From contig JAVTLE010000023.1 in assembly GCA_033439295.1 (NCBI GenBank), forward strand, positions 310,001-374,000: a stretch of DNA of 64,000 nucleotides. Direction: 5' to 3'. Source of the DNA: Deuterostichococcus epilithicus (Eukaryota; Chlorophyta; Trebouxiophyceae; Prasiolales; Stichococcaceae). Below, piece after piece: positions 1 to 64,000 of the stretch. Positions within the stretch are counted from its first letter, which is position 1. Every line of letters begins with the position of its first letter. The position numbers and the translations under genes were made by a program. Below the pieces are notes generated by a model. It made no database searches. It was given only the letters and a program-made list of their open reading frames with translations, and was not told the DNA's origin.

Positions 1-50
1 AAATGAGCAACAGCAACACAGACCAGAAGCGGCCAGGCGGCAGGTGGATG

Positions 51-1909
51 CTAGAAAGACTCACGAAGGATGGACAGCAGCACCGCCGCGACTGCGCCGA
101 TCACGGCGCCGATGATCGCGCCGACGGGGGCGGCACTGCTCTTGGGCTTTGGGAGCTTGATGCCGCCCTCGACGGCAGCCACCAGCAGCAGCCTGTCGAT
201 GTCGAGGCCTGCGCGGCGACAGCACCGCTGAAACTGTTCTGGAAATGAGGTGTCTTTGGCAGGGACAGGTGGATGCCGCCTTCAACCATGGCCACCAGCA
301 GCAGCGGATCGACGTGCAGGCCTGCACGGCAGCAGCACCAGGGTTGAGATGACAAGCCCGAGAACAGCTCGATGTTGCCCTCTCCCGCAGCCGCCTGGCG
401 GTTTCCAGGCCTGCATGGCGACAGCACCAGAGTGTGTTGCTGGAGTTCTATTATTGTCGTCATCCCGAGGCCGGGGATCCCCGACTGAAGCAGCATGCGA
501 CGGGGAGAGGAGGGGTCTCAGGGGCATATTGTGCAGGGTGGCAGCCAGGTAGCAGAGCGCATGGCGTGTGCTGCAGCAAGTTTCTCAGACTCGAAAGATT
601 GCTCAGACTCAAGCTGTCAGCATCCTCACAGCCTGTAAACGCTGGGCTGACACCCAGACCATCACTCTCAGAAGCGCACTGCATTATGGCGGGTCTGCCC
701 GGGAGGCATGTGCAGCCTGCGGTGATTGCGTGGGTGGGAGGCCATGCAAAGCGCCCTGGGTCGAGCACAGCCCCGCCCACCTTGCTGCTGCAGCAGGGCC
801 TTGAAGCTGCGCAGCGTCTGCGGCTGCGCCAGGTCGCTGGCCGCATCGTCGAGCTGCCCCTGCTTCACACCGTCCACGTTATAGTACACGGTGACATTGT
901 GGTCCACCTCGTCTTGTAGCAGCGACCGCCGCCGCCGCTGCCGCCGCCGCCTCCCCGCTGCTTGGCTGGCATCTATATTTTCCTGCGCAAGTGAAATTGC
1001 TGTCAGCGTCCGTGCACCGGCATCGCGCTTGCCGACCTGGGCAGACCCTCAGAAGCCCAGCGAGTGCTGGCGTGCCATCGCGCCACCAGAAAGACGAAAT
1101 GAAACACTGCGTGAAGGAGGGAAGAGGAATCTAGTCCCACCAGCGCCACGGCGCAGGCCGGCCAGAAGGTGCTGATGTCCTGGTCCGCCAGCAAGGATGC
1201 GGTGACTAACCATTGAGTTCATGATCAAGAGGCACGTCCACATCCGACTCACCCGCGCGCCGACAAAGGCCGGCTGGAAGCTGCTGATGTCTTCCTGCGC
1301 CAGCAGGGATGCAAACTGCGCCTCGAAGGCGGCGCGGACGGCGCCCTCCCACGGCAGCAGGCCCGTGCCGTTGAGCGTGTACGCCGTCTGCAAAGACGGC
1401 CATGAAGTCTGAATGACGGGCTGTCTGGAGCCGAGGACGTGTATGGATCGATGCAAACATGTTCAAAGTCCAAGCAATTGATGATGATGTGCTTTCGCAG
1501 TGTGGGGCGAGCGAGCGGGGGACAGATGAGCGCCGACAGCGGCGTGCAGCGCCGGCCGCCTGCAGCGTGGCGGCGCCCATCACACACTATCGCCGTGCCT
1601 CGAGCGGCCGCGCCCTGCCGGCAGTTGGATAGCCACAGAGGGCCGCCACGGGAGGCGCGTCCCGAGGTGGGCTGAGAGCCGCACCCCCAGGACGACTGTG
1701 CCGGGCAGGGATCCGGCGAGTCCAGGTGCTGGCGCCTGAGCATCCCCGTCCCCGCCGCTGCCGCTGTCCTCGACGCTGTCGTCGTCACCGTTGCTGTCGC
1801 TGCTGTCGCCGCTCGAGGCGGTGCCGGCGGCGGCGGGCGCGCCGCCGAGCGCGAGCAGCAGGGCGCACAGCAGCACTGCTGTTGCCGCGCCGCGCTGCGA
1901 GATTGCCAT
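51..1909 (-). CDS. Secreted/cell-surface protein with signal peptide and C-terminal TM helix, function unknown
   Basis: I do not recognise a named family. Four exons join in phase: 1909-1685 (signal peptide MAISQRG..., hydrophobic core LLCALLLALGG, then an acidic Ser/Asp/Gly linker), 1387-1253, 937-781 and 208-51 or 208-65. Exons 2-4 read as two similar units. Each has a beta-like stretch (AYTLNG; VTVYYNVDG), an amphipathic segment (VRAAFEAQFASLL; LRSFKALLQQQ) and a second strand. The start of exon 3 at an acceptor inside a CGG run is the least certain edge. The last exon ends in KLPKPKSSAAPV and a GxxxG-rich membrane helix (GAIIGAVIGAVAAVLLSIL). This predicts a type I single-pass surface protein with a very short cytosolic tail. 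A consensus donor (GTGAGT) overlaps the tail at 64, so translation may stop at 51-53 or the gene may continue past the left edge. Family and function are inference only. Confidence 0.6.
255..330 (-). repeat. Decayed copy of final-exon 5' edge (first gene)
   Basis: On the minus strand a cag acceptor is followed by a reading GLHVDPLLLVAMVEGGIHL. The real exon starting at 208 reads GLDIDRLLLVAAVEGGIKL. The copy lies upstream in the intron and keeps the junction, but runs into Pro/Thr codons instead of the TM segment. Confidence 0.75.
365..422 (-). repeat. Second, more decayed copy of the same exon edge
   Basis: After a cag on the minus strand, frame-aligned codons give GLETA..., followed by a stretch near REGNIEL. 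This weakly parallels GLDIDRLLLVAAVEGGIKL. It lies farther from the real exon than the 255-330 copy and is more diverged. Confidence 0.45.
1140..1200 (-). repeat. Decayed copy of exon 2 3' edge (first gene)
   Basis: The minus strand reads LADQDISTFWPA with a following GTxGGx-like run. The real exon end at about 1300-1253 reads LAQEDISSFQPAFVGAR. The copy sits just inside the downstream intron. Confidence 0.7.
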
Positions 1910-15415: not shown

Positions 15416-18400
15416 TCACTTGCGCCGCAGCTGCGCCGACAGCTTGCACATGCGCGCCAGCAGGCCCGACAGCTGCAGCCGCGAGCCGACGCCGTCGCTG
15501 ATGCGCATGTGCGTCAACCCAATTTCCTGCGGCGCAGCATGTTACACATCAGAGAGCCGAGCGGGCCAATTGGTCAACCGTGAAAACAGTGTGCGCCGGA
15601 CGTAGCAGCCCGTCAGCCTCCCGCAGCACCGTGTGCAAGGCCTGACTGGACGGTGCAGCAATTGCTGCACATCGGGTTGCGGCTGCCCCCGCCCCTGGGG
15701 CCTGCAGCCATGGCGGAGCGGCCATCTATGGCAGGCAGATGCTGCCAAGGGTGCGCAGTCTCTGCCAGTTGACATGCAGTGCCAGGGTGGGAACGCCCAC
15801 AGCACCTCGAGCAGGCTCGCAGCCATGTGCAGGGCACACTTGGACACATGAAGCACAGACGTTATGCCAGGGCACCAGCGACCTAAGCATGCCTTGATGT
15901 CATCCAGCCCAGCACCTCGGGCATGTCCGTGGCACTGCACACTAGCACAGCACAGCGTGGCGACAGAAGCCTGACTCAAGGTTTTCAAGAAAGGGGCGAA
16001 AACATCATGACAGAAAAATCATCACCTTAATGTACTCCAGCTTCAAAAATTCCGCCATGTCGGTGTTGCGCACAACGCGAAACAGCGTGGTGATGATGTC
16101 CGTGCTGCTGTAGCCGGCGTCGAACAGGCTCTGCAGCAGCAGCAACAGCAACAGAGTGAAGACTTTTGAGGCATGGATGAGGAAAGGGTTGAGGGCACAT
16201 GCGTCCAATGGGTGTTGGGTAGAGGTGCCGCTGGTGGAGCCTTCACCTGCACTGAACAGGAGCTGCATTTCAGGGACAGAAGGAGCTCAAATTTGAGATG
16301 TGTGAAGGGTCGTGCGCTGTGGCCATGCCCATGACTCCGGCCCCGAACAGCACCCAGGAGGGGGAGGCCTAGGCTTCAGGGCTGCGGCGCCAGCATACGT
16401 GCTCCTGCCGCAGCTGGGGCGCCAGCCAGGCCCTGGGATTCATGGTCCCCAGCGAAACACACCTTCATGCCCACGTAGGCGGGTTGAAGGTTGGCCGCCA
16501 GGCAGTTATGGATGATCTTCGCCACCAGCAGCGGGTGGGGCTGGTCGCACACCTGCATCACAAAGACACAGAGGCTGTGAATGATGCCGCCGCGGCGCGC
16601 ACGGCTGAAACGGGCGGGAGCATCTGACCTGGGCTGCCCACAGGAGCTGCACACTGCTGACAGCTCAGCCGCGATCGTGGCCATACCCGGCATGTGCAGG
16701 CTGCAGCGCCGCTGCGCCGCCGTGCGCTGGCATCATGTGCCAGGACCCCTGCAACTGTTGTTCTTCTTTGTTGTTTATATACAACCAGGTGAGCGGTGCA
16801 CAGGGGTGACGTCTCCGCACCTTGAAGACGTTCTCCCGGTCCACCAGTCCGAAGCCCGCCACCGTGGCCTGCAACAGCGTCAGCAATGGCGCTTCAGACC
16901 CTCCAAACGCACGCACACACAAAACATCCTCTGCAGAGCGCCGTATCGTGCGCGCCGCTGCGCCACGGCTGGGGAGAGGCCGATGGACAGTAGGAGTGCA
17001 CCGTGTGCATCTGCTTCTGGGCTTCACTGCACTTTCGAGACGCAGGCTTTTTCTGAAGGCAGTCTGGGTTTTAAACCCTCAACCCTAAAACCCTACATGC
17101 CTGCAGGTTGTTGAGCGCCTGCCGCATGTCGCCGTCCGCAGTGAAGATAATGGCCTCTAGACCCTCTGGCACAGTCGCCACCTGGCACACAGAAACATTT
17201 TAGATGTCATGAACAAGGCGAGGTTTAATCTGAGCCTGAGAATTGGGAAGTGCTCGCAAGGGACGCTGCCGGCGGGCCTGCATGGCAATCCCCGCAAGGG
17301 GCCGCCTCTGCTGAGGCGCTGCACAGCTCGCGGCTCCAAGAAAGGACACACACGGCCACAAGAGCTGCGGTGCCGGGTTTGCAGCCACGGCAGCGGGCTT
17401 GGGAGCACGAGAGAAGGTTTCAGATTCCGTTCTGCCGGCTGGCCGCGACACTAGCGCGCAGTCGACGGGCGGCGCGGCAGCCTTGGCCCCCGCCCACTGC
17501 CACCCCCAAACTCAGGATCCCGCACCAGCGGATGTGCGGTGCAGCAGCTTCCCCCCGTCGCGCAGCCGCGCGCGCTGGAGGGTGCACCAGCAGTGGACAC
17601 GCAGGATGCGCAGAGCAGGCATGCAGATGCGCGGTGGCGTTGCCAGGTGGCTCAGTCCCATCATTCCTGCCAAGGCCCACTTCTCGCCCGGTGTCTTCGT
17701 TGGAAATTCTCTAGGTTAACACTTTCTCGCCTGCTCTTGCTGGCACACCCACTGCAGGCGGCCCAGCAGCTCGGCGTCGCCCAGCCGCACGAAGCGCAGG
17801 ATCGCGCACCGCGACTGGATCGGCTCGATGACCTGCGGGCAGCGAAGACGCTGCAGGGTGAGCCCGCATGTATGTGGGGTCCATGAGCTGGGAGGCGTGG
17901 CCTGCCCGAGCCCAGGATCGCGCGCCGCGACTGCCAGACCCTGACCTCTACACTGCTCATCTGCTCGATGGCCTGCGCACAGGCAGGCGGCGCGGTGGCC
18001 CGGTACACAGACACGTGTTCACGACAGCAGCACCACTGCATGCAGGGGACATAGGAGTGCGGGCCGGGGCTCTGCCCGGGAAGTTCAGGGTCATCGCCGC
18101 GCGGCCGCTGCACTTCGGCCTTTCACGATGCACTCCATGTGTGCAGGGTGCTGCGTTGCATCTTTCTGGGTTTGGCGGCTGTGAAAGGGCATCAGGCGCC
18201 TGTACGGCTGATGCCGGATGCGGCAGTGATGAAGGGGAAAACAGGCTCTGAGGATATACCGCACCTTTGAGGACTGATTGCATGCGAGCGCAAAGCGCGT
18301 CGTCGCCGAGTAGATCTCCATCGTCCGCCGCAGCGCCTGCTGCGCGCCGCTGGTCATGCTGCAAAGGCACATCACAGCATTGCATGGCTTGGGGTGAAAC

Positions 18401-20284
18401 CTCCACAGTGATCGAGTGGATGTCCATTGTCCGCCGTAGCGTCTGACACATCCTGCTGGTCATGCTGCACTGTGGCAGGTGAACCAGGGGTCGGACATGA
18501 TGTAGCGAGCATCGGGCAGGAGAGTCGAGCAAATTTTCCGCCATTTGCCGCGATGCCAGGAGAGCAAGCGCAAAAGAATCGCTTTGCGCTCCTGGACCGC
18601 TTCGGTGAGGAGAACCACCGAAGCTGTGCACAGGACTGGATATCTCATCTGTATGCCACGTCCAGGATGAGGATACTCGATGGGAAACTTACCAGATCGC
18701 CAGAGAACCAGCTGATCCCAGACCCTAATTGAGCAGAGAGTGTGCAGTGTTCCCTCAGCTGTCAGCAGTGTTCCCTCAGCTGTCCGCCTCGTCCCGATGA
18801 CGACCTTGTGGGTAGCCGATGCTGCAGCAGCGACGCAGTCGAGAGGCTGTATATGGACGCCTTCTGTCAACTGTGCACCCCACCTGTCTGCCTCGTCCAG
18901 GATGACGATCTTGTGGCGGCCCGGTGGCAGCGTCACCTTCTTCTGCGCAAACATCTTGATCTTGTTGCGCACCACATCGATGCCCCTGCGGCGGCAGGCA
19001 AATTAGATGGCCACGGATCAGGCCTGAACATCACGGCACACAATATTGCGCTCCAGGAGATGTCTGTTCCTCCTATGATCGCCGATGGCCCCTCCTGCGC
19101 TGTTGCGGCAATTGCAACGCCCCCGCTTCTGTGCCGGCCCTACTCTGGTGCATTGTTCACCGCCTCAAGGCCCGGCACTTGTGGGGGTCTAAGTGGAGGC
19201 CCGGCACTTGTGTGTGTTCAGGTGGCGTGTGCAGGCTGCGCATGCCACAGCAACTTCCTCTGTCAGCCAGAGGGTGCCAGCCGCCGGAAGGCTGGCTCAG
19301 GCACCAACAGCAGAGCCCGCAAACCTGTCATCTGAGGCGTTGAGCTCCAGCACCGCATCCCGGTAGCTGGGCCCGAGCAGGCCGTGCGCCAGCGCCAGGA
19401 TGCTGGTTGTCTTGCCCGTTCCTGGCGGCCCCTGCGGAGGATGTATCACAGCGGTGTGTCACGGTGTAGACCCTGAAAGCCAGCTCGTGATGCGCCCCGG
19501 CAGGGCGTGTGCCAGCGTCGGGACTGGCCCGATGCTGGTCGAATTGCCAGCGTCCGGCGGCCAATGCCGAGAAGGCTGCGGCGGCGATGCTTCAAGATGA
19601 AACGGCAACTCGTGCTGGGGCGGTGTTTTGATTAGTTTCTCTCTGGAACGGTGAGCTTGGCCAGCGCCGGGACGCTGGTCGTCCTGCTGGGCGCTTGGCG
19701 GTGCCTGCAGAACAACAGTCGCAGGCATGATGCAAATGGCGAACAAAACATCCTCACCGACAGGATGATGTTGGGGAAATTGCCCTCGCGGCCGATGACC
19801 TGTAGCCGCGAGACAGCTTCCACGTTGCCCACCACGTCGTCGATGTTCTTCGGCCGGTACTTCTCCACCTGTAACGAAGCCCATGCACACGGCTTTGCAT
19901 GAGCGTTTTAGGGTTTAGGTAGTACACGGGAGGGTGTGTCTTGAAGGCGGCAGCACCCTTACATGCAACGGTAGACATGCTCGGGCAACAAACTGAGGGC
20001 CTGTCCAAGCCGGAGATGCGGAAGACGACAGCATGGCCGCACAAACGTTCAGTTGACCATGCTGCTGACTGCGTGCCGGCCAAGCAGCCACATGCCGCCA
20101 TTGCGGCGGTGTCTGATGGAGGCCAGCAGGATCTAGATGAGGAGGCGGAAATGTGCAGCTTGGGTGTTGAACCTACCCAAGGCAGGTCATATGAGGCTGC
20201 TGCCTTCTTTGCTGGCGCGACCGTGGGCGCAGGCGCCGCCGCATCGCCGTCATCGATGTCCATTGCTGTTGCGGACCCCGCCAT
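15416..20284 (-). CDS. RFC2: Replication factor C subunit 2 (RFC2/Rfc4-type), clamp loader
   Basis: AAA+ ATPase subunit of the RFC complex that loads PCNA at primer-template junctions. Eleven exons join in phase: 20284-20177, 19868-19758, 19431-19325, 18985-18884, 18358-18265, 17832-17731, 17181-17101, 16868-16821, 16552-16463, 16130-16026, 15526-15416. The sum is 1,059 bases, 352 residues, normal for the family (about 330-355). The RFC box reads [21 protein letters not shown], Walker [11 protein letters not shown], and Walker B VILDEAD. The arginine-finger SRC motif lies in [13 protein letters not shown], and GLEIIF-type [19 protein letters not shown] follows. The C-terminal collar contains [17 protein letters not shown] and [13 protein letters not shown]. 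Two introns start with GC: after 17731 (CAG|GCGAGA) and after 17101 (CAG|GCATGT). Both are required by phase. Introns hold decayed exon copies. The gene is divergent from VPS50 across 1.6 kb. Confidence 0.95.
17068..17096. repeat. Telomere-like motif at RFC2 GC donor
   Basis: ttaaaccctcaaccctaaaa then ccctac; read on minus, the intron after exon 7 begins GCATG followed at once by TAGGGTTTTAGGGTTGAGGG. Confidence 0.8.
17908..17982 (-). repeat. Decayed copy of RFC2 exon 6 (SRC-motif) 5' edge
   Basis: The minus-strand reading [20 protein letters not shown] parallels the real [14 protein letters not shown] but is split by an insertion. Plus-strand blocks ggatcgcgcgccgcgact and ctgctcgatggcctgcg match ggatcgcgcaccgcgact and ggctcgatgacctgcgg. 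It lies in the intron upstream of exon 6. Confidence 0.75.
18408..18475 (-). repeat. Decayed copy of RFC2 exon 5 5' edge
   Basis: The minus-strand reading [19 protein letters not shown] corresponds to the real [19 protein letters not shown] at 18357-18300. The copy retains the tgcag acceptor-like edge. Confidence 0.85.
18776..18840 (-). repeat. Decayed copy of RFC2 exon 4 3' edge (Walker B)
   Basis: The plus strand has ctgtccgcctcgtcccgatg then acgaccttgtgg, against ctgtctgcctcgtccaggat then gacgatcttgtgg at the real exon end (18884-18925). It lies downstream of exon 4 within the intron and keeps the donor-side junction. Confidence 0.8.
19478..19575 (-). repeat. Decayed copy of RFC2 Walker A exon
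   Basis: The minus strand reads [20 protein letters not shown], against the real [17 protein letters not shown] (exon 19431-19325). The Gly and Lys that contact ATP are lost. It lies immediately upstream of the real exon. Confidence 0.85.
19640..19708 (-). repeat. Second decayed copy of RFC2 Walker A exon
   Basis: The minus strand reads [17 protein letters not shown] in one frame. The nucleotide blocks cgccgggacgctggtcgtcc and ggcgcttggcggtgcctgca on plus match the corresponding parts of the Walker A exon edge. The frame is broken relative to the real exon. Confidence 0.7.
19897..19922. repeat. Telomere-like motif in RFC2 intron 1
   Basis: gcgttttagggtttaggtag, about 30 bases from the exon 2 acceptor (minus-strand gene). 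Confidence 0.75.
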
Positions 20285-21915: not shown

Positions 21916-24900
21916 ATGCTGCGGCGGCTGCGAAAGCCAAAGCCGGAGGCGCCGTCCGATCTGCAGCACCTCACAGCGGCGCGGCATGACGTCATCTCCG
22001 AGCGCATGCTGTCGCTCTCCCCCAGGTGGGACATGCTTCACTAAGCTCTGGAGGAAGATGGTATAACAGTCTGCTTCTGATGGCGTTGCAACATGACATC
22101 ATCTGCGAGCGTACTCTGTCGCTGGCCCCAAAGTCTGGCACCTCGACACTTGAAGAACATCAAGCACTCGGCAATTGCTGCGCTGCTGCCGACATCATCA
22201 CCTTGGCCTGGACACCGTGACTCTGGCTCCCCCAGTGGGTCTGCAGCAGGGGGAAGAGCCAGAGGCGGCGCTGCAGAAGGCAATCCTGAGATGTCAAACC
22301 TGTGCACTGCAGGTCGCTGTCGCAGCGAGGAGGAGGAGCAGGAGGCAGCGCTGCGGGATCTGGGCGATGGTTTTCGGCCTTTGCACACCCCGATTGATAA
22401 ACTCTGAAATGTAATCGCTTTCTATTGCAGGTCGCTGTCGCAGCGGGAGGAGGAGCAGGAAGCAGCGCTACGGGAGATGGGGGAAGATTACCTGGAGGAA
22501 ACGTACGACTCCGTCGCGGCGGAGATGGGCCGGCTGCCGCCCAACTTTGATGCGCACATGCTGGACGCGCTGGTCGACCGCCGCTCCTGGGTGCTCGAGG
22601 TGGAATTGTAGTTTGGTAGCCCTTCAGCCCGGCTTTTGTGCGCCTCTGATTTGCACGCGTCCAGCGCTGGGCACCCTCACGAAGAGGCAGGACGCAGCCA
22701 TTGCTGAGTGTGTGCCGATGCTCGGCGCGCTGGCCGTCTGCCGCCCGTGGGTGCTTTGTGGAGCGGTCTCCCACCGAGCCTGCGCCTCTGTGGCCGTGAA
22801 TGAACCCTGACGGCAATAAAGCTGCACGGCGCCGATGCCATGTGTGTCTTTTGCGCCGTGCGAGCTGTCAGCGAGCAGCTTGCAGCAGATGCTGTAGCTA
22901 ATTTTGAATTTCTTAGCCTGGATGCCGCGCAGACTGTGAACGAGAAGCTAGCGGCCATTCGTCTGCTGTTGTACCTGTGGACGTGCTGGCTGCCAGCAAG
23001 TGATCGAGGAGCTCTGGCCCAATGGGGCTGAAATGTCAGCGCTTTTTAGGGCGGGTTTCCTGATCAGAAAGTCACCCTCGGGTTTTTCTGCGAGCAGAAA
23101 GTGAACGAGAAGCTAGCGGCCAACGTGGTGCTCAACTGGCAGCGCTTTGTGGACGGACTGCACGACGTGACCGTCATCCAGGGCGACATAGAGGTGGGCC
23201 TGAGTTTCATTGCAGTGCGAGTAGTTCAAGCCTCATGTCACATTGCACTGGGCATGAACGGCTGCAACAATGTAAACTGTCATCCAGGGCGACAGTGAGG
23301 TGGGCCGGTATTTCGTTGTAGTAGTTGGAACCCTCGTTTCTCAAAACGCGGTGGGCAAAGACAACTGCACGATGTGACTGTCAACCACAGCCGACTCTGG
23401 TGAGGGTGGGCTGGTTTTCGAGGAGATGTTATCGGGCAGTCTTGCTGAGACCCGCCGCTATAACAGATTCAAGGTTTGGTACATTCTGCAGCGGTACGCT
23501 GCCCAGGTGTATGCGAGTCGAGCTGCGTCTCTGCAGGGGTGGCCATGCATTGCACATAAGCCGCCTCTGCTCAGGCTCCAGGTGAAACTCGTTTGCACCT
23601 GCATGCAGCACCCAGAAGGTTCTGCACAGGCCCCTGGCCTGGCGACAACACAAACCTCTTCGGAAATGGCGCAACAGCAGGCTTGTCTGATCACTTCCAG
23701 CGAGAACGCTTCTCTGATCGCGCTGCAGGACGCCTACCTGACCGTCAAGGACGTGCGCGCGAAGCTGGCATGGCAGGCTGCGGGGACGCCTTCGACACCA
23801 GTGCAACAGCTGTCTTGTCTGGACCACTTCCAGCGAGAACGCTTCTCTGGTGATGCCACAGGACGCCTACCTGACCGTCAAGGACGTGCGTGCGGAGTTG
23901 GCGTGGCAGGCGGCGGATGCACAGGCGGGGCTGGCGATCGGCGGGGCATGGCACCGCCGCGCAGGCCTCGACGCAATGCTGCAGCTGGTCGGCAGCCTCG
24001 CGGCGGCCAACGCGGCGCGGGCGTCCATCATGTGAGCGTCGCGGGACTGTTCAGGGTTTATACTTGTTTGGGTCCACAAACTTCCTAACATTTGCTACAA
24101 CAAAGGAAGTAGCTCATCTCGAGCCAGACGCTCAGTGTCAAGCATGGGCGACCATGGCTGGCGGCACGCAAGACACAGCCTCTCCCATCCACACTGGCAC
24201 GGCGGGCCGCCTGCCATGGTGGAGGTAGAGCCGCTCTGTCTTCAGGTTGCTGGCAGCTGCAAGCGTCAGGCCGCCGCCAATGCCCTAGAAAATTTGCTGC
24301 TGCGCAAGCATGTTTATCGGCGTTTGTCACCACTGTGCGGAGGGCCGACCGGCTCTGCGGCCCCTCCACACGACCCCACGGCCCCTCCACACGACCCCAC
24401 ACAATCGTGGGGTCGTACGGAGGCCGTTTGCGAGTCGGTCGGCCCTGGGGCGTGTTGCGACCTGCTCAAGGCATCGCACAGGGCTGTGCACGCTCAGTTT
24501 CCTGACTGCGGCTGGAAACATCTCTCAACGGCTGTGTTATGACGACTCAGCACGACGCGGCGCTTGTCCTGAAGCGCTCGCCCTGCGGCGCCGCGGCCAC
24601 CCTGAAAGCACGCACTGCGAGCGTGGGGTCCTCAACCTATGTGTGCTTCGAGGCCTGTTCCCGACGTCTCAACCGCCGCCGGAAGCAGACCCGCGAGCCT
24701 GACACGTTCATTTACTTCATCCACCGCGGTCGACATGTCGTCCTGGGGATTCGACAAACCCTGACCCCGAACCCTGAACCCTGGATCCTCATTTCCACTC
24801 GCAGGGAGGCGCAGGCAGACGGGGAATATTCGGAGGCGCTGGCGCGCTGCGGCGCTGCAGCAGCGGCGCTCGACACCGTCCGCGGCCTGGCGGTGGCGGA

Positions 24901-37221: not shown

Positions 37222-37485
37222 GCGGGCGACAGCCAGGACACCCGGCGGCAGGAGCGCGCCGCAGCCACCAGTGACACAGAGCTCCTGGACTGAGGCTTTT
37301 GTGCTCCAGCGACGGCAAAGCTGAATAGAGCGCCAGCAGCAAACATCAAGAGCATCCGGCGGCGGGAGCGTGCTGCAACACTGGCGGTGATAGCCACGGA
37401 GCTTATGGAATGACCAGGCAATGGTGGCCTGACAGCCAACGCATCCAGCGGCAGCACACTGGTTGAGAGACATGGAGCTTGTTAG
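37222..37485 (+). repeat. Three echoes of VPS50 last-exon 3' end after the stop codon
   Basis: The real end reads SQGIRRRERATALAAIDAEL then VE and stop (37111-37180). Downstream are SQDTRRQERAAATSDTELLD plus stop (about 37230-37294), SIRRRERAATLAVIATELME plus stop (about 37351-37413) and a weaker third block from about 37431. Each of the first two keeps a stop codon at the homologous place. Confidence 0.93.
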
Positions 37486-44618: not shown

Positions 44619-47600
44619 TCAGTAGTAGATGGTGAGTGTGCGATGGTGCGGCGGCGCCGTCTCCCGGGCCCCCTCACCGCGCCCCCACAACAGCCAGTCC
44701 ACCGCCACCGCCGTGATTGTAGGATTCGGGGTTTTCCCGCTGCGTACTGCTGCCGTGACGCCGCTGCTGTGCGTCCCCATCGCCCGGCCCGCCGCCACCC
44801 CGCTGCCGGCTGGAGGTGCGCTGGGAGTGGGCCCCGCCACCGCCGCCGCGCCATCGAGCGTCGGCGCCAGCCGGGCGTTGAGCTCGAGTCGCAGCGCCTC
44901 CACCGCCGCGATCGTGCAGGCACGGATCTCCACCTCGGCGGCGCCGCCCGGCGGAATCTCTTGTCTGCCATCCACCTGAGGTGAGGGGCAGGGCGGCAAA
45001 TGATAAGGGGTGTGTTCCTCTTCAGGCATGAATGATCGGCATGCGACGGGCGCAACCCGGAGACACCTCCCACCGGCTGCCCACCCTGTGGTCGCAGGCA
45101 GCCCTCTGTCACAAGCAGGCAGCGATGGCAGGCAGGGGCGCCAACAGGGCGGGAGGCATCGGAAGGCAAGGAGTGTCGCGTCAGCTGCTGTGCTGTGTCC
45201 GATCGCAGCTGAATGTCAACGTCCTTCCTGACGTGAATTGATGACTGCAGGAGCATGCTATCGGTCATATACCCAGGCCTGCCAGCTCTGACTCCAGAGC
45301 CTGCCAGAACCCAAGAACTCCAGCAGAGTCAGTGTGCAAGGTCTCACAGCGGGCACATGTGATGGTCGAACTGCCGAGTTTTGGGTATTCGCGAACCTGG
45401 GCCGCCAATTCGGCGCTGTACACGAGGACGCCCATCTGCCGTAGCACGACAGGCACCCTGTAGTCAGCGAAGGTCGTCAGGCGGTGGAGATCGCGGAAGG
45501 CGCCGGCGCCGGTGCCGCCGAACGCGCCCCACACATCGGCCGCAAAGATCTGCGCACGCTTGTATAGAAACACCTGGCGGCCCCTGCGGGAAAGTTGCAG
45601 AGCTTGCTCGAAAAGCACATTGACGGTGAGACAAGCTGCCTTGTCGAACTCGCATCGGGCATGAATCCACCCTGGGACCTTGCGCATGCGCGGCGGGCAG
45701 AGGACGCTGCACAGCTGCAGAACGCCCCTCGGAAGCCCCGGAAAACCCTAGACCCCAACACCTCTGGCCCTCCATCAGCACGACTTGCTGAGCCATCGTG
45801 ACGCAGATGCACCACATCTCAGCTGCCTCCCAGTTCAGAGCCACCACAGCCCGCACCACACCTGTACACGGTATGGTCTCGGAACCCGGGGAACGCCGCC
45901 GTGACGAGCCGCACCAGAGCCGCCGCCGAGCCGCCCGCAGCCGCCACGAGCTCGGCGGCTCGCCCACCATAGGATTCGGCCAGACCGTGGCCGACCTGAG
46001 GAGTGAACAGCACTTCACGTCAGAAAGTGTGTCCGCATCAGGGGCGCCCGCCGCTGGGTCAGTGGCTTGCCAGATGCAGCCCTCCGCCGGCGCAGAGCCG
46101 AGCTGTGGCAGATGTGGCATCTCAATGTCAGAGGCTGTTTATGGCATTTTGGCTGCACACCTGCGTTGGGTGTGACTTCATTGCTGATTATCAAGCTGCT
46201 AGCCTCAACTTGCGGCACAGACAGTCCAGGCAGCAGCAAGAGCTGTGACGCCCCACGATGGAAGCTGCCCAAACCACGCAAGACACACAACAGCCCAGGA
46301 CTGCAACAGCATAACCTCTGCCCGCCATGCAGGGCCTTGCACGGTGCTCTGCGCTTGCCTGGCAGTGTGTCAGTCCTCATCAATGCCGAGGGGTTGAAGG
46401 TGACACACAGGGACAAGGCGAGGCACAACCTGCAGCATTCGGCTCGCTCACGCTGCCGCTGCGGCAGGGGCGGAATGGGCGAAGTCCTTTCACCCCCATT
46501 TCCACAAAGCTGCGACAACCCACACATGGTGTCTTCACCGGCATCCCCCCCGCAGCAGCAGCCTTGCTCGCCCGAGTTGCAGCAGCAGCCGCGGCGGTGG
46601 GGCAGCAATGCGTCCTGGTCTTTCCAAGTGAGCACGAGACGTAGAGCCACATCAATGCAACCACAGCCGCAAGTCCGCAGTTTCCTGTCCAGAAAGGGAA
46701 ACTGTACGAGAATACGGCGCACCTCCCGCAGCAGCCGAGCCCGCTCGTCCTGCAGCGGCAGCGGCTCCCGCCGCCGCGCCAGCGCCTGCACCGCAGCGCC
46801 GTCTGCTTCCTGCAGCCGTGCCGCATCCAGCGCCCCGGGGTCTGCCAGCAGCGACTCCTGCAGTCCAGGCGTCGACAAGATTGCCGATCAAACATGTTGC
46901 GACCCAATGCCGCTGCGGCGCCGCCTGCTTCCTGCAGCAGTGCTGCATCCAGTGCGCCAGCATCCTCCTGCTACGACTCCTGCGCGCATTGGTGCGCAGT
47001 CAAACCAAAACCTTGCCCGCATGTGGGGCTTGCATCACTGCGCCACCTGCTTCCCAGGAGGCGTGGCCGCTGGATGCGATGACTATTTGGATCAACAACT
47101 TGGATTTTTTTTGTTGGGGCTCCCACCTTGAGGCCGCGGGCCAGGTGCTCGTACTCCAGCCCCGGCTGCGGCCAGAAGCAGAAGTTGAGGGCGTCCAACA
47201 CCAGCAGGTACTGCATCGTCGCGTTGTCGCTGCCGCAAAAGTGCATGCCTGCAACCAAAGGGACCGCCAGTGGGATGTCCAGCAGCAGAAGGCAGTGCAT
47301 CGTTGCGTCTTCGCCGGCCCAAGAGACGGTGTCTGCAGCCCAGAAAGTGTGTAAGGTGCGGCCAGAATGAGGATGTCTAGCACAGGTGCTAAATGGCGCA
47401 TTGTCTTGGCGCCAAAATTCCTGCCTGCAGCCAAGACTTCGTCAAATCTTTCAACAACCTGCAACTTGGCATACCTGTGTCCCACTTCGGGCGCTGCAGC
47501 TCGGCGAGCTCCGCCGGCATCACCGCCACCGCCGCTGCCCGGAGCGCTGCATGGAGGGGGGTGCATCTCTTCAACGAGTGCGGCGTCGTGCACATCTGCA

Positions 47601-48384: not shown

Positions 48385-51216
48385 ATGTGCGCACGGGTGC
48401 GGAATTTCACAGCAGCCGCTGCCACGCTGCTGGCGGCGGCCCTGCTGGTCGCATTGGCCGACGCAGGCTCACTGCCAGTGTGCCCGGTGAGCTTTTGCTG
48501 CATCAACGGTCCATGAATTGAATTCACGAACAATAGGTGCATGCTGAGGGCGTTCGAAGCGGATGCAGAACTGTCGGACCGTGGCGCTGTGAGGTCAATG
48601 GCCGGCTGCGCCGTGGCGCCATCGCAGCTGCAGCCGCGGCCCTCGCAGCAGCTTGCAGATGCCGGGTTCGGACGCTCTTGCAAACCTTCTGGTAGCTGGC
48701 GAAACCAGATTGAAGGACCATCTGCTGTGCGAGCTCCACTGCAGCGCCCTGCATGTCACCGTGTCTCCCAGCCGCCGCTGGCCACCTCCGCTGCCGACGC
48801 CGCACCTTGCACACTAGTTGCGTCGCTTCGAGGTTCTCGTGATGAGATGGTGACTTCTGCAGGCGAAACCAGTACCTGAAGTACTGGGGCCTGGGTCTAG
48901 CATACCAGGAAGAATGCCTTCTCGGTTGGGTTGACCCGAGTTTTTGTTGTGACATCTGGAGACATGTTCCGTGCAGGCGAAGCAGTACCTGGACCCGGGG
49001 TTGGGCTGCCGGCCGTGCATCGCCCGAAGCAGCCCCTTCACGCGCGTGCTGCCCGGCAACGCCGGCCGCAAGTGCTACAACCCGGAAACCGCGCTGGGCC
49101 TCGTCTCCTGCAGTGCGCCCTTTACACCCGCTGTTGGCAATGGAATCTGACGCTGCCTGGCAACGGCGGCTGCAAGTGCTGCAGCGCAGAGACCGCGCTC
49201 AGCCTCGACTCCTGCACGAACCCTCCACCATCGGGGGCTCGCACAACAGCTGTTTATAGATCCTGAGGCAGCAGTACGGTGCGTCCATCCTGTCATGATA
49301 CAGCAGTCAACAGTCATTCGATGGTCGTGCACCCGGTAAGAGCTTGTTTTGGATTGCTGTGGCGTCCGGCGACCTGGCAGTAACAACTGTTCAATTTTAT
49401 GGAGCAGCAGAGGAGCCTGTTCAATCCCTAAACGCTCACCTCGACTTGGCGTTCACTCGTGTCAGCCCTGTAGGTCCAAGAAGCAGCGGCATGGGACTAT
49501 ACATAACATGCATACTTTCCGGCGCGCAGCTGGGGTGGAGGTGGCGGTGAAGATCCGCTCCCAGGCCAACGCTAGCAAGGTCGTCATCTGCATCAACCCG
49601 AATGACAAGTGCGTGGCGCGGCTCGTCTGCCCTCTTGACTCATGTCTCTGCCTTGACGCCTCGGTGGCACCGCGTTGCCTGCATGCTCGCCTCTCACCTG
49701 GCGCTGCGGCATACTTTTCGTGGCAAAACTCGCTGCGCCGCGCTGCCTGCATTCTCGCCTCTCGACTGGCGGTGCCGCTTGTGGTTCGAAACAAAACCTG
49801 CAGAGCACTCGGCGCTGCTGCGAGCTGCTCCGAGTGCCATTGCGCATGTGGCAGCAGCGGACACCACAAGACGGTCGTTCTGCGCAACCGAGCTGCCTGG
49901 CCATTTTCATGCACGAGATCCCCTTGGCGGTTGCTCCAAACCATCCTCGCGAATGACCAGAAAGAGAGAGCTTTGCATTGCTGCGTGATGCAGATACCAC
50001 ACCATCATCTTCCCAACGGCCAGCACTCCAGAGCTACCCGGCCTCACATATCGTAATTACAAGAAGACCACCCTGCGGCTGGCAGGTGCAATGTTGGTCC
50101 TTTCCCTTTTCCTTTTCCCTTTGTTTCTTCCCAACCACATAACACACATGACACTTGAGACGATGCACCCAGCATGGGTCGCACTGTCGTGCGCGGATGG
50201 GGAGCGGCCTGCCAGGCTGCCGCTGGAGCTGTTCGGGGTTTTTCCGAGTAACTACTATATATCAAAATGGCTGCTGGAGGCGGAGGTGGGGAGACAGCCC
50301 TCGCTGTGCATCGGCCATCATGATCGTGCCAGCCGCTCCTTGCCCCCCCCCTCCCCCATCACCTGCCCAATACGTCTGGGTGATGCGGCGCATTCGGCTG
50401 TGCCGTCCCAAAGTGCAGCGCATGGCGCCGCCGGCTTCGTAGCTGTATGCTGTTGTCCCGAACACTACATATTCTTGTTAGGAGCGTGAGCCTTTACTCG
50501 AAAGCTTTGCTAGGAAAACCCGCCGCTAAGCAATGTTCAGTGGCTGCAAGTCATACCACCCTGTCCACCTCACAACCTTTCCACATAGCCAGCGGCGTCA
50601 CCAGCAGCGGCAGCCGCGCCTGCCTGCTCACCTGGGAGCTTTGCCGCCTGCAGGCTTGAAAACACGCAAAACCCGGAGGGGCGCCGTAATTTTGAATAAG
50701 ACGTCGGGTCCGACCAAGGGGCTGCACGTCACCTTCTCCGACCTGTACGGAAAGTTCAAAAAGCGGTGCGCTTTAGGGTTCAGGGTGTAGGATGCGGCGG
50801 TGCCTCCTGTCATCTATGCTCATCGCGGGTGCCTTTCGGTGGGCTGAGCCAAAACCAGCTTGTGAGCGAGCTGACGGAGATGCGGTGTCGTCTGAGACGA
50901 CTCCGCAGATGTTCAAGACGCTGGCGGCCTGTAGGGCGTCCCTTGCTGTTGCCAACGAGTCACGCTGCAGGGTGTAACAAGGAGCCATGTTCGGCAGCAA
51001 ATGCTGTGACGTGGTTCAGCTGCAATGAAGCTTCTTTTCGCTACATTTGTCAACCTGCGAAATCCCTTCAGCTAACCTGAGCACTCTTGGGCGCGCAGGC
51101 GGAGCGCGGCTGTCTCGCTGCAGGGTGTCCTCAAGGACCCGCGCGGCAGTGAGCTGGACCTGTGCTTTGTGTCCTTCCCCGTCGTCTGCCCCAACGTGTC
51201 CAACAGGCAGAACTGA
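48385..51216 (+). CDS. Small secreted cysteine-containing protein (middle unresolved)
   Basis: Exon 1 48385-48486 is a textbook signal peptide (MCARVRNFTAAAATLLAAAL then LVALADAG). In-phase exons follow at 48977-49112 (LGCRPCIARSSPFTRVLPGN; KCYNPETALGLVSC) and 49530-49608 (GVEVAVKIRSQANASKVVIC). Two 3' exons also join in phase: about 50702-50765 (TSGPTKGLHVTFSDLYGKFK) and 51099-51216 (LQGVLKDPRGSELDLCFVSF, ends VVCPNVSNRQN). A GC-rich block at 50588-50654 (SGVTSSGSRACLLTWELCRL) probably supplies another exon, but I could not join it in phase. Spaced cysteines suggest a disulphide-bonded extracellular domain. There is a loose resemblance to pherophorin-type domains, but not enough to assign. 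Function unknown. Confidence 0.55.
49138..49235 (+). repeat. Decayed copy of secreted-protein exon 2 3' half
   Basis: The reading LPGNGGCKCCSAETALSLDS parallels LPGNAGRKCYNPETALGLVS of exon 2 (49049-49108), directly downstream of the donor. Confidence 0.92.
49615..49800 (+). repeat. Diverged tandem repeat downstream of exon 3
   Basis: ccgcgttgcctgcatgctcg then cctctcacctggcgctgc (about 49669-) and ccgcgctgcctgcattctcg then cctctcgactggcggtgc (about 49738-) are about 69 bases apart. A weaker third unit precedes them near 49620. Confidence 0.85.
50768..50790 (+). repeat. Telomere-like motif at a splice donor
   Basis: gctttagggttcagggtgta lies within the first 25 bases of the intron after the KFKKR exon. 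Confidence 0.7.
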
Positions 51217-52705: not shown

Positions 52706-55281
52706 TCAGGGCAAGGGGTGCGCCCAAGACACTCCCACCAGGTAGCCGACCACAACGCCCAGAACCGCCCCAGCCCCCACCTGCACCAGGGGCGACCACT
52801 GTGTGAGAGCCTGGTACGGACCTCGAGCCTGCTCGGCCGCGGAGGCACCATGTCGAAACGCGAAACAGGCAGACGAGAGGCTGGAGAACAACCGGAAGCT
52901 CAACACTGCGCAGCACAGGCAAGTGTGTGGCGCGGGCTGTTGGCGTTGCTGCCTGGATCCATCGAGCCAAACTGGACCCGTCCATAACGATTTCTCAGTC
53001 CGCCAGAGGCTCAGGACAAAGCGAGCCCCAGGATATAGTCTGGCACCTGCAGCGGCGTGTGGCCAAGCGTGTCGCGCAGCGGCCGCGTGTCCGACACCGG
53101 GTGGTCCGGCGGCAGCTCCGTGATGATCATGTTGAGCACGCTGGCCTGCTTGCCCGCGTGCAGCCGCACTCCGCTGGCGTCGTACATTACCACCTGCAGA
53201 GTTGAGGATGTTTAGAAAGTAGGCTTTGGGGCTGAGCGTTGCAGGTGTGTGTACCGAGCAGGCGATGCTGCTGATGGCGCTGCGACGGCAGTTCATCAAA
53301 GCGCTTGTCGTGGATGCCGTGAGCTGGCGGGGCTGCGCCAGGCGCCACAAGTCGAGGGCAGTAGCAATCGTGTGCGAAGCCGGCAGGGCTTGAAGAGGGC
53401 GTGCCGTCAGCCGCACGCGTGCCGCACCCCCATGCACGCAGGGAGTTGGGGGTGACAGGGTCTGACGGCGCGGGCACAGCACAGGTCACTCAGCAAACGG
53501 AGCCCCAGTCTGTTGCGGCGAGCGCAGGCGCCGGCGCATCGCTGTCTGCACGATGCAAGGGTACTGAAGCGACTTAGGTCACACAAAGACCCCTGACGAG
53601 GGCGCACCATGCTGAAGACGAGCGCGATGGCAAAGGGCGATGAACTCGTGCCGCCAATGACGCCCAGCGCCGTTGTCAGCCCGAGCACCTGCATGCAGTC
53701 GCACGGCAGGCCCTGAAGTCTCCGTTACCTCGTTGCAGCATGCGGATGGTCTATTCAGGGGCCCGCAACCCCGCTGCAACACGGCCAAGTTGTGCACTGG
53801 TGGCAGCCTGGGTTGCCGATGCGCCGGCGGCGTCCAACAGTCTTCCCATCGGTCCAAACCTGGCATCTGCAGCTGCTGCAAACAGTCGTCTGTGCCATCT
53901 TAGAATGACAACATCGGTTAGTCCATGTTCACTTCTCACCCTGGAGGTGTGGGAGGCTGGGGGTGTTATTGCCGGTGATGCGTATCTCAGCATCTGTTGC
54001 CAAACTGCTGCAAAGTTGGAACCGACGTAACAGACACATGTGCGGGCAGCTCACCATGGAGGTGAGTCAACGATGGTTTAAGAATCCTAAAGCCTAAAAC
54101 CCACCATGGATGTGTGCGAGGAGGGCATGCCGCCGGAGCCGATGATGCGGGTCACGTCCCACTTGTTTTCCGTGTAGTAGTAGGTGAAGCACTTCGTGAT
54201 CTGCGCGATCGCAAAAGCGATGAACGCCGCCACGAACGGCCTGCGCACAGCAAAGACTAGAACCTGGTTAGGAGGCTGCTGTGGACAGGCACGCTTTGTG
54301 TGATCTGCGAAATGCCGATGGGCGCCGCCACGAGCGGCCTGCAGGACAGCAGATAGGAACTTATAGAGGAGGCCGGTCAAGGGTCAACGGTGAAGCCCTC
54401 TGTCCACAGCACAGTTGAGAAGGCAAAGGCCGCCCAGCATATCTGCAGGGGGACACAAGACTCAATGGCAGCGTGGGGCAAGACGAGGGCACATTTTCAT
54501 TCGTACGATCACGAAGGCGTCGGCCGCCGCCATGAGCGGTTCATGCGCAGACGGGGAAGAAACCAAAACACCATCAGCACTGTCATCAGATTGCCTGCAC
54601 CCGGCGAGCAAGGGTGCACTCTGAGGATGACTGCCACCCACGGGCAGCTCCGGCCCTGCAATGGAACCTGCCGCATTCACCTGGCTAAGCTGCACATGTC
54701 TGTGCCCCACACACGTGACTGCACTTCGACAGTGTCAGCACCCACAATGGGCGGCTCCGCCCTTGTCTGCACCAACAAAGCTCTGCGCCGGGCCGAGCAG
54801 GCCGGCGACATTGCGCGGTGCTCCGCCGCAGCTCAGGCGACACTTACTGGATGTGACGGATGTGACGATGCTCACGGAGCAGAGTCGACTCAGCAACCTC
54901 AGTCCGGTCCCAGTCGCTCAGCCAAGATGGGCTGCGGCCACTGGCAGGGTGATTTTCAATGAATCATCCTAAACTGAATATGAAAAGTGCTCACCCATTC
55001 TGCAGCAGGCCCCGCAGGCCGCCCGAGGCGTACAGGAAGTCGCCGCTGTGGGCGGCGCCGTCTGCCATGGAATTGGCGGCGATCCGAGCCCCGGGCCCGG
55101 TCACGCCCGTGGCATCGCGCGCCGCGCCACCGACCCAGTCGTTTATGCTGCTCGGACAAAGGGAGGCGCGCCGTCCGTCAAGTGCTATCTCTGAGCCGTG
55201 ATAGGTTCTTGATGGGATCTTGATAGGTTCACTTGTGGCGACGCACGGCGGTGCAAAAGGCGCCAGACCGTCAGCTGTCAT
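52706..55281 (-). CDS. Divergent PAP2 (DUF212) family membrane protein
   Basis: Plant/algal/bacterial family PF02681, described as acid phosphatase/vanadium-haloperoxidase-related; the biochemical role is unsettled. Exon 1 ends at 54995 (LYASGGLRGLLQN). Then come 54240-54105 (PFVAAFIAFAIAQITKCFTY; IGSGGMPSSHTSM), 53688-53608 (VLGLTTALGVIGGTSSSPFA), 53193-53047 (VVMYDASGVRLHAGKQASVL; ELPPDHP; LGHTPLQ) and 52780-52706 (VGAGAVLGVVVGYLVG). All junctions agree in phase. The GSGGMPSSH, YDAxGVRxHAGxQA and LGHTPxQV signatures are diagnostic. The start codon is uncertain: ATG at 55281 gives 241 residues with an organelle-targeting-like extension; ATG at 55068 gives 170 residues, close to the bare domain. 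Confidence 0.9.
54050..54066 (-). repeat. Decayed copy of DUF212 exon 2 3' edge
   Basis: caccatggaggtgag (plus) echoes ccaccatggatgtgtg at the real exon/donor junction (54101-54116). It is short, so low confidence alone, but the position matches the pattern seen elsewhere. Confidence 0.45.
54082..54104. repeat. Telomere-like motif at DUF212 exon 2 donor
   Basis: aatcctaaagcctaaaaccc, directly adjacent to the donor at 54104 on minus (intron begins GTGGGTTTTAGGC). Confidence 0.7.
54290..54348 (-). repeat. Decayed copy of DUF212 exon 2 5' edge
   Basis: tgtgatctgcgaaatgccga then tgggcgccgccacgagcggc parallels cgtgatctgcgcgatcgcaa then aagcgatgaacgccgccacg at 54195-54234. It lies upstream in the intron and retains the cctgc acceptor complement. 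Confidence 0.85.
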
Positions 55282-61118: not shown

Positions 61119-64000
61119 TTGCCCACGCCGATCCACCATCAGGCTCACGAAATCGACAGCCGCGCCGCATCAGCAGTGGATAACTCGCTGCACAGCGGCA
61201 CCTTGACAGCGTCTGCGGCGGCAGCACCAGCGGCGGCAGTGGCAGCAGGTGCGGCGGCAGCACGGCTGCAACCGGCAGCAGCAGCTGGCGGTCGAATGCG
61301 CACATTGGGCTCAGACAGCAACGGGGGCGCCAGCTTGTACAGCGTTCGCACGCGCATCTGTGCTGCCTACAGCCAGGGGGCCTTGCTGCTGCGCCGAGCC
61401 GGCATCATCCGAAAAGATGGCCGGCTGCCGCGGGCGCTGCTCGTGGGCTGCCTTGCGGCAGTGGCGCTGGCGCTGCTGCTGCTGGCGAGTCCACACAGCA
61501 GGCTGCCCAGGTGCGTGGCACCCTTCTCGTCTGCCCGTGTGGGGGAGCGCAAACCACGGGTTTTTGGGGTTTCTACCCCCCCAAACATAAGACTGAATCT
61601 CAATATTGGTCTCAGGGGGTAGGGGAGCGTCAGTCAGCACAGCGCCAGCTTGCAGAGCCTGAGCGTGCACGCCGCTGCAAACAGCTCCATAGACTGCACA
61701 AGGCGGTGTCAGCAACACGGGATGGTCTCAACGAGGTTGGTTTCTGAAACACGTCGCAAGCGTTTCAAGATGCTGCATCGTCCCGAAAGCGCGCTGCAGC
61801 ATGCAGCGCAAGGCAGCACCCCAAGGAGCCACATGCTGCTGCCCGATCCTGCTTCAGCTTGCTGATGTTACGAGGGGATGCTCATGCCACAGGGAGCAGC
61901 GAGAGGCGCGGCTGCTGCAGCTGGGCCGGGCGCCCGCCGGCGGCGGCTGGTCGCTGTGGGGCAGCGGTGGCGGCGGCGGCGGCGGCGGCGGCGGGCAGTG
62001 CAGCTGCGCAGCACGAGACGCGGCGGACGCGGGCGCGGAGAAGTATGGCAGCCAGTACTTTGCGCTCTGCCTGGCGGTGAAGGTGGGTCCGGGCAGTGGG
62101 GTGTGTTAGGGATGATCAGGGTGCTGCACATTGCCTTGGGGGGGATCACGTTGCGGCTGATGGGCTTGGCTGGAGGCCTGTTGCGCCTGGGCAGAGGGGC
62201 AGGCAGGTGTTTTCACTGCTGCATACGAGGTCTCGACGATGGTTTTTGCTGAGTCAACGGCTTTGCTGAGTTGTAGTGGATGATGATAAGAATTGTCTCT
62301 GCAACAACTTGCAGGATCAGCAGCGGGACCTGCCGGAGTGGGTGGCGCACCATGCGGCCATCGGGGCCGGTGCGCAACCAGACGAGTTGGAACTTCTGCC
62401 AGACTGCAACATCTTGGCTGGTTTAAGATCGCAAAGGCTCCTGTGATGCCTTGCTTGCGCCGCCTCGACTTGAGCGCATGCCTTGTGTGCGGGAGCCCCG
62501 CCTCGCAATGCTGCTGGACCGCCCCGATCAACCTGCCAGCATCTGTTGAGAAAACCGCCGCCAAGGGTCAAGCGTTCGCCATGGTGACCGGCCACATGCT
62601 TGCAGGCAAGATCTACATCTTCGACACCGGCAGCTCGCCGCCGCTGAACGAGACGCTGCAGGTAGTGTAGCCCCATGCAAACCCCGGTCAGAGAATCCTT
62701 GTAGGTTGGTCATGCTTTGCTGGGCCTGGGATGTCAGGCCCTGAAAAGCAGCTTGTGGACTCGGCTGCCCGGTGTGCATACCACGCCTCGCACAAGCAGG
62801 GTGACGCAACATGGCAACGGACCTGACCTGCCCTGCGGCAGCTCCCTGACTTGAACATGCCGCCCCACCTCAGCAGCGCAGGGCTGCTGGGGTTCAGGGT
62901 TTAGGGTCTCAGACATGTGGCACAGCCTGCCGCCGCCAGATGCGCGGGGCCTGTCGCGCAATTTCACAAACCCTGACTGATGTCCCATTGGGCGCATCGC
63001 CTGCAGGAGCATATAGAGTCGGGTTTGGTGGAGCACATCTGGCGGAGGGCGGACTTTGGCTCCCAAAAATTTGGGCGGTGAGGCGCTTCTGCCCTTTCAA
63101 CCCTACAAGTCGTATCCAGCACAGCTGCGCAAGTCAGCGAACCTTACACAGGGCACGAAGCCGGGGGCCTGCTGCGCTGGCTGCGACACCGTGTCTAGGG
63201 ATTTTGAGTACTTCCTAAGCTCGCCGCACCCTGCCTGCGGCGCTCCCCGGCTGTGGCCGCTGCCTCCCTGTGGCGGAGCCGCCTGCTGCGCAGCTGCGGC
63301 GGCTGTGCACTCGTGTGCGGGCGCCAGCTGACTGCCGCAGCCGGGGGCAGCTCTTCATTCTTGCCGTTCCGCCCCAGGGCCGGTGTCCAGCAGCGCCGGG
63401 GGTCAACAGCGGGGCAGCCGCACGACACACGCAGGGCGAACTGCTCCTGTGACTGGGCTTCTGCCCCGTTCGACACATTTCGAAAAGAAAACACCAACAT
63501 CATATAAAAAGGTTTTGCCTGCCCACCCGGCCGCAGGAGGTATCCGCAGAACGAGATCTACGCGGAGTGCATGCGGCGGTATGGGCGGAGGCACCAGTTC
63601 CTAGGTGCGGCCCATGCCTGGATGAGGGTTAGGGAATCGTGCTTCAGTGCCCGAGGGGTCCATGCCTCAGTGCCTCACTGCCCAGCTTGCAGTGGATGCT
63701 CGCACCGTCGCTGGCATGCATCTCCAGCTCCGATCGTGGGGGTGGCCCCCCCCGCATGCCCGCGTGCCACATCAGCAACACCGCCCCGCAGCCGCGTGGA
63801 CGGCCGTGCTGCTTCGTGCTGCCGGCTCCTTGAACCCAGGCGTTGCTGACCCTGAGCAACCCGTCGCCCGCAGGGTTCATCGACTCTGATGAGGTGCGCG
63901 GGCGGCGCGCTCTGTGCTCGCGAGCCAACTGAAGTCTGCGCAGTTGGGATGCTATGCGTTCTGCACATCGACACCTGGAAGCTGATTACACAGCTGATCA
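61119..64000 (+). CDS. GT92 (DUF23) glycosyltransferase, type II membrane, runs off right edge
   Basis: Golgi-type glycosyltransferase family 92 (PF01697). Seven exons in phase: 61119-61510, 61893-62082, 62315-62369, 62606-62661, 63007-63077, 63537-63604, 63874-63893, then beyond the window. Exon 1 has a cytosolic tail and signal anchor LPRALLVGCLAAVALALLLL; exon 2 a Gly-rich stem and YGSQYFALCLAVK. Exons 3-4 give DQQRDLPEWVAHHAAIGAGK then IYIFDTGSSPP, the family KDxxxxLxEWxxxHxxxG/xYxxD motif. Exon 6 has NEIYAECMRRYGRRHQFL and exon 7 GFIDSDE, equivalent to the acidic F-D-V-D-E metal/nucleotide-sugar motif of the family. Exon 7 is a 20-base microexon. The start is ATG 61119 or, more conservatively, ATG 61296 (MRTLGSDSNGG). 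Acceptor sugar is unknown. Confidence 0.83.
62886..62912. repeat. Telomere-like motif in GT92 intron 4
   Basis: gctggggttcagggtttagg then gtctc, inside the intron between the 62661 donor and the 63007 acceptor. Confidence 0.75.

Follow-up and report, generated by a model that had tools for sequence, protein, structure and literature searches.

Introduction

Why do several introns in a 64,000-nucleotide stretch of the genome of the green alga Deuterostichococcus epilithicus (contig JAVTLE010000023.1, positions 310,001 to 374,000 of assembly GCA_033439295.1; "the window" below always means this whole stretch) contain degenerate copies of the edge of the exon next to them, in many cases together with the splice junction? 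We suggest, with a probability of roughly 0.7, that these copies are decayed remnants of ordinary local tandem duplications, mostly of 95-135 bp, which were placed by chance across exon-intron boundaries and across the boundary between coding sequence and 3' untranslated region. The copies are direct and local, peak in size, are fully asymmetric between the upstream and downstream sides of the exon, decay as non-coding and neutral-like sequence and show a weak similarity of their intron halves. They occur in a subset of genes, above all in VPS50.

Exon-edge copies in adjoining introns

The genome comprises 46.8 Mb in 21 contigs and its genes contain introns. Exons were placed with a simple self-trained gene finder, for which the window and 16 random 10-kb loci served as training set; all gene models, exon borders included, are thus predictions from sequence alone. 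The sites learned were a CAG/GTGCG-like donor and a YGCAG/G-like acceptor (the stroke marks the junction), and 427 internal introns were predicted in the window and the 16 loci. Loci L001-L008 were excluded throughout. Introns below 80 bp (30 of the 427) were dropped from the exon-edge test and those below 60 bp from later scans. In this test 60 exon and 30 intron bases from each edge of the remaining 397 introns (794 edges) were aligned to the edge's own intron. A same-strand copy with a score of at least 36 was present at 40 edges, 15/397 on the donor and 25/397 on the acceptor side. At the same score nothing was found in the shuffled intron, the reverse complement or an intron from a different gene (0/397 each for donor and for acceptor edges), nor in another intron of the same gene (0/386 per edge type). 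The self-alignment proposed in the initial annotation of the window, with shuffled and non-adjacent introns as controls, therefore came out in favour of the copies (40/794 versus 0). Within the window, 40 of 210 edges exceeded all 60 length-matched null draws, 3.4 being expected.

The orientation of the repeats leads to the same result. Self-comparison of the window at E<=1 gave 68 direct pairs, of which 41 were spaced by 50-300 bp, and 39 inverted pairs, none of which was spaced by 50-500 bp. At a score of at least 36, the window plus 14 loci (L019 and L020, described below, being set aside) contained 82 direct and 2 inverted pairs with a spacing of 50-500 bp. No direct pair at E<=0.01 was obtained from order-3 Markov versions of the 16 loci. 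Chance similarity or low-complexity, GC-rich sequence might be thought of in a genome with a GC content of about 62% and simple GC repeats, but with all controls at zero and no signal that is free of orientation we reject it as next to impossible. Inverted repeats acting as RNA partners are rejected on the same ratio of 2 inverted to 82 direct pairs, and dispersed elements because none of the 397 edges of either type has a match with a score of at least 36 in an intron from a different gene. The exon-edge copies are real, yet their distribution is patchier than first claimed.

Anatomy of the copies

For counts of spacing and class we left out L019, which holds a tandem gene array (coding tandem repeats at 5522-9106, about 1.4-1.5 kb apart and 68-81% identical), and L020 (1-10000), where a long repeat of 1784 bp, 96% identical and with its copies 7.3 kb apart, may represent a transposable element. 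The 87 local pairs divide into 49 that join an exon (with or without intron bases) to an intron, 6 intron-intron pairs, 11 exon-exon pairs, 11 with exon in both copies plus intron bases and 10 touching intergenic sequence. With 11 of 87 pairs being exon-exon, in-frame exon repeats are rejected as the main cause. A two-sided search covered 269 internal exons, those below 50 bp or with a flanking intron below 80 bp being dropped. It found 13 copies of donor edges downstream and none upstream, and 20 copies of acceptor edges upstream and none downstream, exactly the arrangement reported in the initial annotation; the splice junction itself was covered in 19 of the 33.

Of 59 exon-noncoding pairs, 28 were spaced by 95-135 bp, a peak to be read with the proviso that simulated detection increases with period; an ungapped diagonal scan gave fewer pairs, with the highest counts at 110-120 bp. 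Triplets are present and some are evenly spaced (113/112 and 161/160 bp). Alignments tend to stop near the junction, and beyond it ungapped identity is back at background level after 10-20 bp; several copies stop before reaching the junction. Other repeats are not confined in this way: near-complete duplications with a legible intron half lie at window position 23671 and at L015 4648, and intron-only tandem duplications at L016 4019 and L023 3821.

Tandem duplication of an AGGT-containing exon segment belongs to the same class of mutation and is generally accepted as a way in which introns arise (PMC3443670). Intron birth of this kind would leave similarity at an offset equal to the intron length, where identity in 512 introns was 0.265 and 0.266, compared with 0.263-0.272 at offsets 1-9 bp away; moreover, the copies sit inside long introns and mostly at some distance from the opposite splice site. 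We disfavour it as a general cause and consider it highly improbable, though single cases could exist.

The copies decay as non-coding sequence

Copies that serve as alternative or decoy exons under selection should retain coding features. Between copy and exon, mismatch at codon positions 1, 2 and 3 was 0.177, 0.169 and 0.242 (42 pairs), so that the first two positions are equally affected; of the 17 gaps in the copies, 16 are not multiples of three and break the frame. Stop codons numbered 3 where 7.0 were expected (standard deviation 2.3), a weak deficit that hints at a kept reading frame. Splice dinucleotides were likewise retained in many copies (AG in 14 of 21 acceptor copies, GT or GC in 9 of 14 donor copies), but this is about what neutral decay would leave at the observed identity, and the copies are only partial exons. 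Selection for use as exons is accordingly very improbable: the copies are not coding and show no clear sign of function.

Proposed chance duplication and the visibility of exon edges

The following course of events would account for the pattern. A local tandem duplication, mostly of 95-135 bp and probably arising from break repair or replication error, would land by chance across a boundary. The protein would then remain unchanged only with the first donor or the last acceptor in use, and since one junction per event preserves the protein, the surplus junction and the exon piece would turn into intron, giving an acceptor with exon start upstream or an exon end with donor downstream. The asymmetry would thus represent a filter rather than a mechanism. 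The redundant copy would decay neutrally within a lengthened intron. One duplication would have produced both exon and intron halves, and a simulated age of about 0.25-0.35 neutral substitutions per site would have wiped out the intron-intron half. Old duplications would remain visible at exon edges because one copy there is still protein-coding and held by selection. The corresponding proposal of the initial annotation, namely duplication across existing junctions that lengthens introns and leaves decaying decoy splice sites with one working copy kept, is supported.

Does this require a process acting at junctions, as had been supposed? Random tandem duplication followed by neutral decay was simulated on real exons and introns alongside a model of exon-restricted copying. 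Rates were of our choosing (relative to the neutral rate, 0.05 for exon positions 1 and 2 and 0.4-0.5 for position 3), whereas periods were those observed. At 0.3-0.4 substitutions per site, 1-10% of intron-only duplications were detected versus 22-53% of those crossing a junction. Old random duplications therefore look limited to junctions because the intron-only ones fade and the junction-crossing ones stay legible. The best of 12 duplication settings (0.25 substitutions per site, longer indels) gave a mean score of 49.6 (observed 49.9), an identity of 0.835 (0.827), a length of 51.8 (50.6) and an intron-half score of -0.004 (-0.022). As random duplication reproduces most of the measurements, targeting to junctions is not needed for the observed pattern, and both the intron-only duplications and the copies over the predicted stop codon of VPS50, where there is no splice site, argue against it. 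Duplication with ages spread evenly over 0-0.6 substitutions per site is rejected: its intron-half score is 0.36, and 72% of its copies extend into the intron by more than 9 bp, versus 19% observed.

The strongest competitor is copying restricted to the exon edge and its splice site, which would be carried into the neighbouring intron from RNA or by templated insertion at a break, the intron half not being included. Simulated at 0.3 substitutions per site, it gives 0.72 as the share of junction-ending copies (-8 to +9 bp), compared with the 0.63 observed, and it agrees with the fall of ungapped identity to background 10-20 bp past the junction and with the mere 6 intron-intron pairs among 87. 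The same simulation lets 0.04 of the copies run past the junction, with an intron-half score of -0.085; its predictions overall are 4-7% of copies extending more than 9 bp into the intron and a score of -0.077 to -0.091, whereas 19% and -0.022 were observed. The intron halves as a whole scored -0.067 globally against a null of -0.164 (standard deviation 0.145, n=41), and in a second measurement -0.022 (n=35) against -0.070 (standard deviation 0.072). Near-complete duplications that include intron, copies extending over a stop codon and copies that fail to reach the junction are further difficulties for exon-restricted copying. We regard it as unlikely and favour tandem duplication, a mixture of both being possible.

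Several observations nevertheless weigh against tandem duplication. The junction-ending share of 0.63 compares with 0.41 in the best duplication setting and with 0.30-0.49 across all 12 (up to 0.54 in another simulation), and that best setting lets 0.28 of copies run more than 9 bp into the intron compared with the 0.19 observed. Its fit needed longer indels, which were picked after inspection of the data; with small indels and 0.3 substitutions, high-scoring copies should have an intron-half score of 0.046 compared with -0.033 in reality (n=15). Only 5 of 41 intron halves exceed the 95% null, and only 5 of 87 pairs span at least 80% of their period, a loss of similarity which the simulations show to come with age. 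A 31-bp copy in L021 is 100% identical between flanks that are unlike. Finally, young copies are absent, which is odd for an ongoing process.

Age of the copies

All 43 scored copies have a score of 81 or less and fall within a narrow range of similarity. If copies were equally frequent over ages of 0.05-0.40 substitutions per site, 41% should lie above this score (P about 1e-10, in a simulation with small indels). Either duplication is past and ended, or some process keeps the copies near 80% identity. Such a process could be gene conversion in short tracts, by which the exon-like part of old duplications is kept similar and which would account for the absence of young-looking copies. The narrow range of all 43 copies and the identical tract in L021 speak for it; however, one short identical tract among many copies may be due to chance, and young intron halves should then also have stayed alike. 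We consider upkeep by conversion improbable, even more so than exon-restricted copying. For tandem duplication itself, the lack of any young copy among the 43 suggests a past episode. It is conceivable, although we hold it only tentatively, that one such episode of approximately 110-bp duplications, now ended, gave a subset of genes their long introns, in a mutator phase or at local hot spots; VPS50 would then be its best-preserved site.

Distribution among genes and introns

The initial annotation described the pattern as window-wide, in at least eight genes, and as systematic. Copies with a score of at least 34 were found in the first gene of the window, RFC2, VPS50, QNG1, the secreted protein gene and DUF212. 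They are weak in SRP9 (2 of 6 edges, score 29) and in the Myb gene (2 of 18 edges, scores 27 and 21), and the sialidase gene, with a single edge of 22 at score 21, drops out. The amino-acid transporter (0/24 edges) and the GT92 gene (0/16) had no edge above the 60 null draws, so the pattern does not extend over the whole window. Nor is it systematic across the genome: copies at a score of at least 34 occurred in 38 of 512 introns in all, 16 of 590 edges outside the window reached a score of 36, and a 40-kb stretch of contig C12, taken as a later replicate, contained none (0/158 edges even at a score of at least 28, 0/85 introns at 34 or more). That introns are "filled" with copies is likewise an overstatement, for among the 205 introns with a length of 250 bp or more a copy was detectable in 33, compared with 5 of 307 shorter ones. 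The clustering of copies by gene exceeds this effect of intron length (1 of 500 permutations was equally extreme).

Pfam matches in the window identify RFC2, VPS50 (Vps54_N and Syndetin_C), the queuosine salvage protein, DUF212 and SRP9, furthermore an amino-acid transporter, glucosidase II beta and GT92. For the sialidase the match to BNR_2 reaches 21 bits, below the cut-off of 31.4, and is only suggestive. Myb gene, first gene and secreted protein are labels of the initial annotation. The predicted RFC2 protein matches best a protein from Malus baccata, followed by one of mmetsp source (77% identity) and by many chlorophyte proteins (Trebouxia, Symbiochloris, Myrmecia, Micractinium, Chlorella variabilis) at 66-70%. 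The Malus baccata entry, an apple protein annotated as RFC, contains a segment of about 130 residues that is repeated internally. The RFC2 model itself has two short stretches added in comparison with its homologues and mostly misses one 18-residue segment.

VPS50, which the predictor split into two models, accounts for 20 of the 40 null-beating edges of the window (20 of its own 54). It has a copy at 18 of 29 predicted exons and at 16 of 20 exons of at least 60 bp, in good agreement with the about 17 of 20 counted originally. The gene (21916-37180) has unusually long introns, with medians of 359 and 417 bp in the two models. In one of its intron regions (25831-25890) a 24-bp unit with CCCTAAA is present in 2.5 copies; it resembles the telomeric repeat known from plants and green algae. 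The stretch 31900-35400 has only two other matches in the genome, each below 60 bp, and no useful paralogue; 31971-32027 matches C20 at 90%, and 33768-33821, which falls in a GC-rich simple repeat, matches C9 at 86%.

Copies in individual genes

Acceptor and exon start occur three times in the first gene (minus strand; 159-226, 272-339 and 384-428), spaced by 113 and 112 bp, and the predictor calls an exon on the middle copy. In the same gene the exon end with donor at 1250-1312 is repeated 112 bp away in the downstream intron at 1138-1200 (1138..1312). RFC2, also on the minus strand, has an acceptor with exon start at 18307-18363 and an upstream copy at 18413-18469 (18307..18469; 106 bp, 79% identity), as well as an exon end with donor at 18864-18916 and a downstream copy at 18759-18811 (18759..18916; 105 bp).

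On the plus strand, VPS50 offers the whole range of forms. Acceptor with exon start is copied upstream from 22426-22484 to 22308-22367 (22308..22484; 118 bp, 90% identity), from 23091-23122 to 22926-22957 (22926..23122; 165 bp) and from 32620-32737 to 32456-32567 (32456..32737; 164 bp), the last being the longest exon-edge copy of the window; the pairs within 27248..27462 (122 bp, 71%) and 36886..37063 (120 bp) are of the same type, and at 34996..35191 the exon start 35133-35191 is matched upstream by 34996-35054 (137 bp). Exon end with donor is copied downstream from 23170-23216 to 23276-23322 (23170..23322; 106 bp) and, within 35581..35728, from 35581-35609 (119 bp, 93%). An inner exon part at 24930-24982 recurs in the intron at 25102-25154 (24930..25154; 172 bp), ending 24 bp short of the junction. 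The near-complete tandem duplication at 23671..23916 has a period of 132 with 114 bp aligned at 87%, and 49 of the 58 intron-intron bases within this alignment are identical. At the 3' end of the gene (37096..37414) the coding end with the predicted stop codon is followed by two more copies, spaced by about 119 and 114-115 bp; all three share the coding end and the stop, and the bases after the stop are without match.

The remaining cases are single. QNG1 (minus strand) has an acceptor with exon start at 46793-46861 and its upstream copy at 46915-46983 (46793..46983; 122 bp), and DUF212 (minus strand) a pair of the same kind within 54218..54351, at 98 bp. In the secreted protein gene (plus strand) the exon end 49048-49112 is copied downstream at 49152-49216 (49048..49216; 104 bp), the copy being without a donor.

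Significance and comparison with known systems

Systematic junction-spanning duplications that lengthen introns were not found among the top matches of a literature search, although the Chlorella variabilis genome paper may describe such; the consulted portion of the Coccomyxa genome paper makes no mention of junction duplications. Many junction-spanning duplications that lengthen existing introns are therefore rated as apparently new, a single duplication crossing a boundary being already known.

On this reading introns can lengthen without transposons, and the copies provide a set of splice-site duplications whose losing member decays freely. They also call for caution, for decayed duplications can appear targeted to exon edges merely through selection on one copy there. 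Should young copies be lacking genome-wide, a burst of one class of mutation would be indicated, and the pathway of repair or replication behind it may be identifiable from the size of 95-135 bp.

Introner elements, known in green algae, also alter intron content, but they recur in many genes, whereas each copy described here matches one exon edge only. Small tandem duplications arising from breaks with overhangs were studied in mouse cells (PMC8355091). They resemble the present ones as direct tandem units of limited size produced by an ordinary repair route; there the overhangs were of 43 bp, whereas here the units are old and of about 95-135 bp, and the repair route is only presumed. Tandem duplication of an exon segment is an accepted route of intron gain (PMC3443670, PMC2891723) and shares with our case a local duplication within a gene, of which one copy is lost to the intron. 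The cases differ in that here the offset does not equal the intron length and the copies lie in pre-existing introns, downstream for donors and upstream for acceptors. Closest is the RNA-dependent RNA polymerase (RdRp) gene of potato with a tandem duplication across the boundary of intron 1 and exon 2 (PMC4974935), in view of which the statement that such events had not been described was too strong. In both systems a single local duplication takes in the 3' part of one intron along with the 5' part of the exon behind it; in potato it led to a new intron and an altered gene structure, whereas in Deuterostichococcus existing introns were lengthened, many times and without sign of a new intron.

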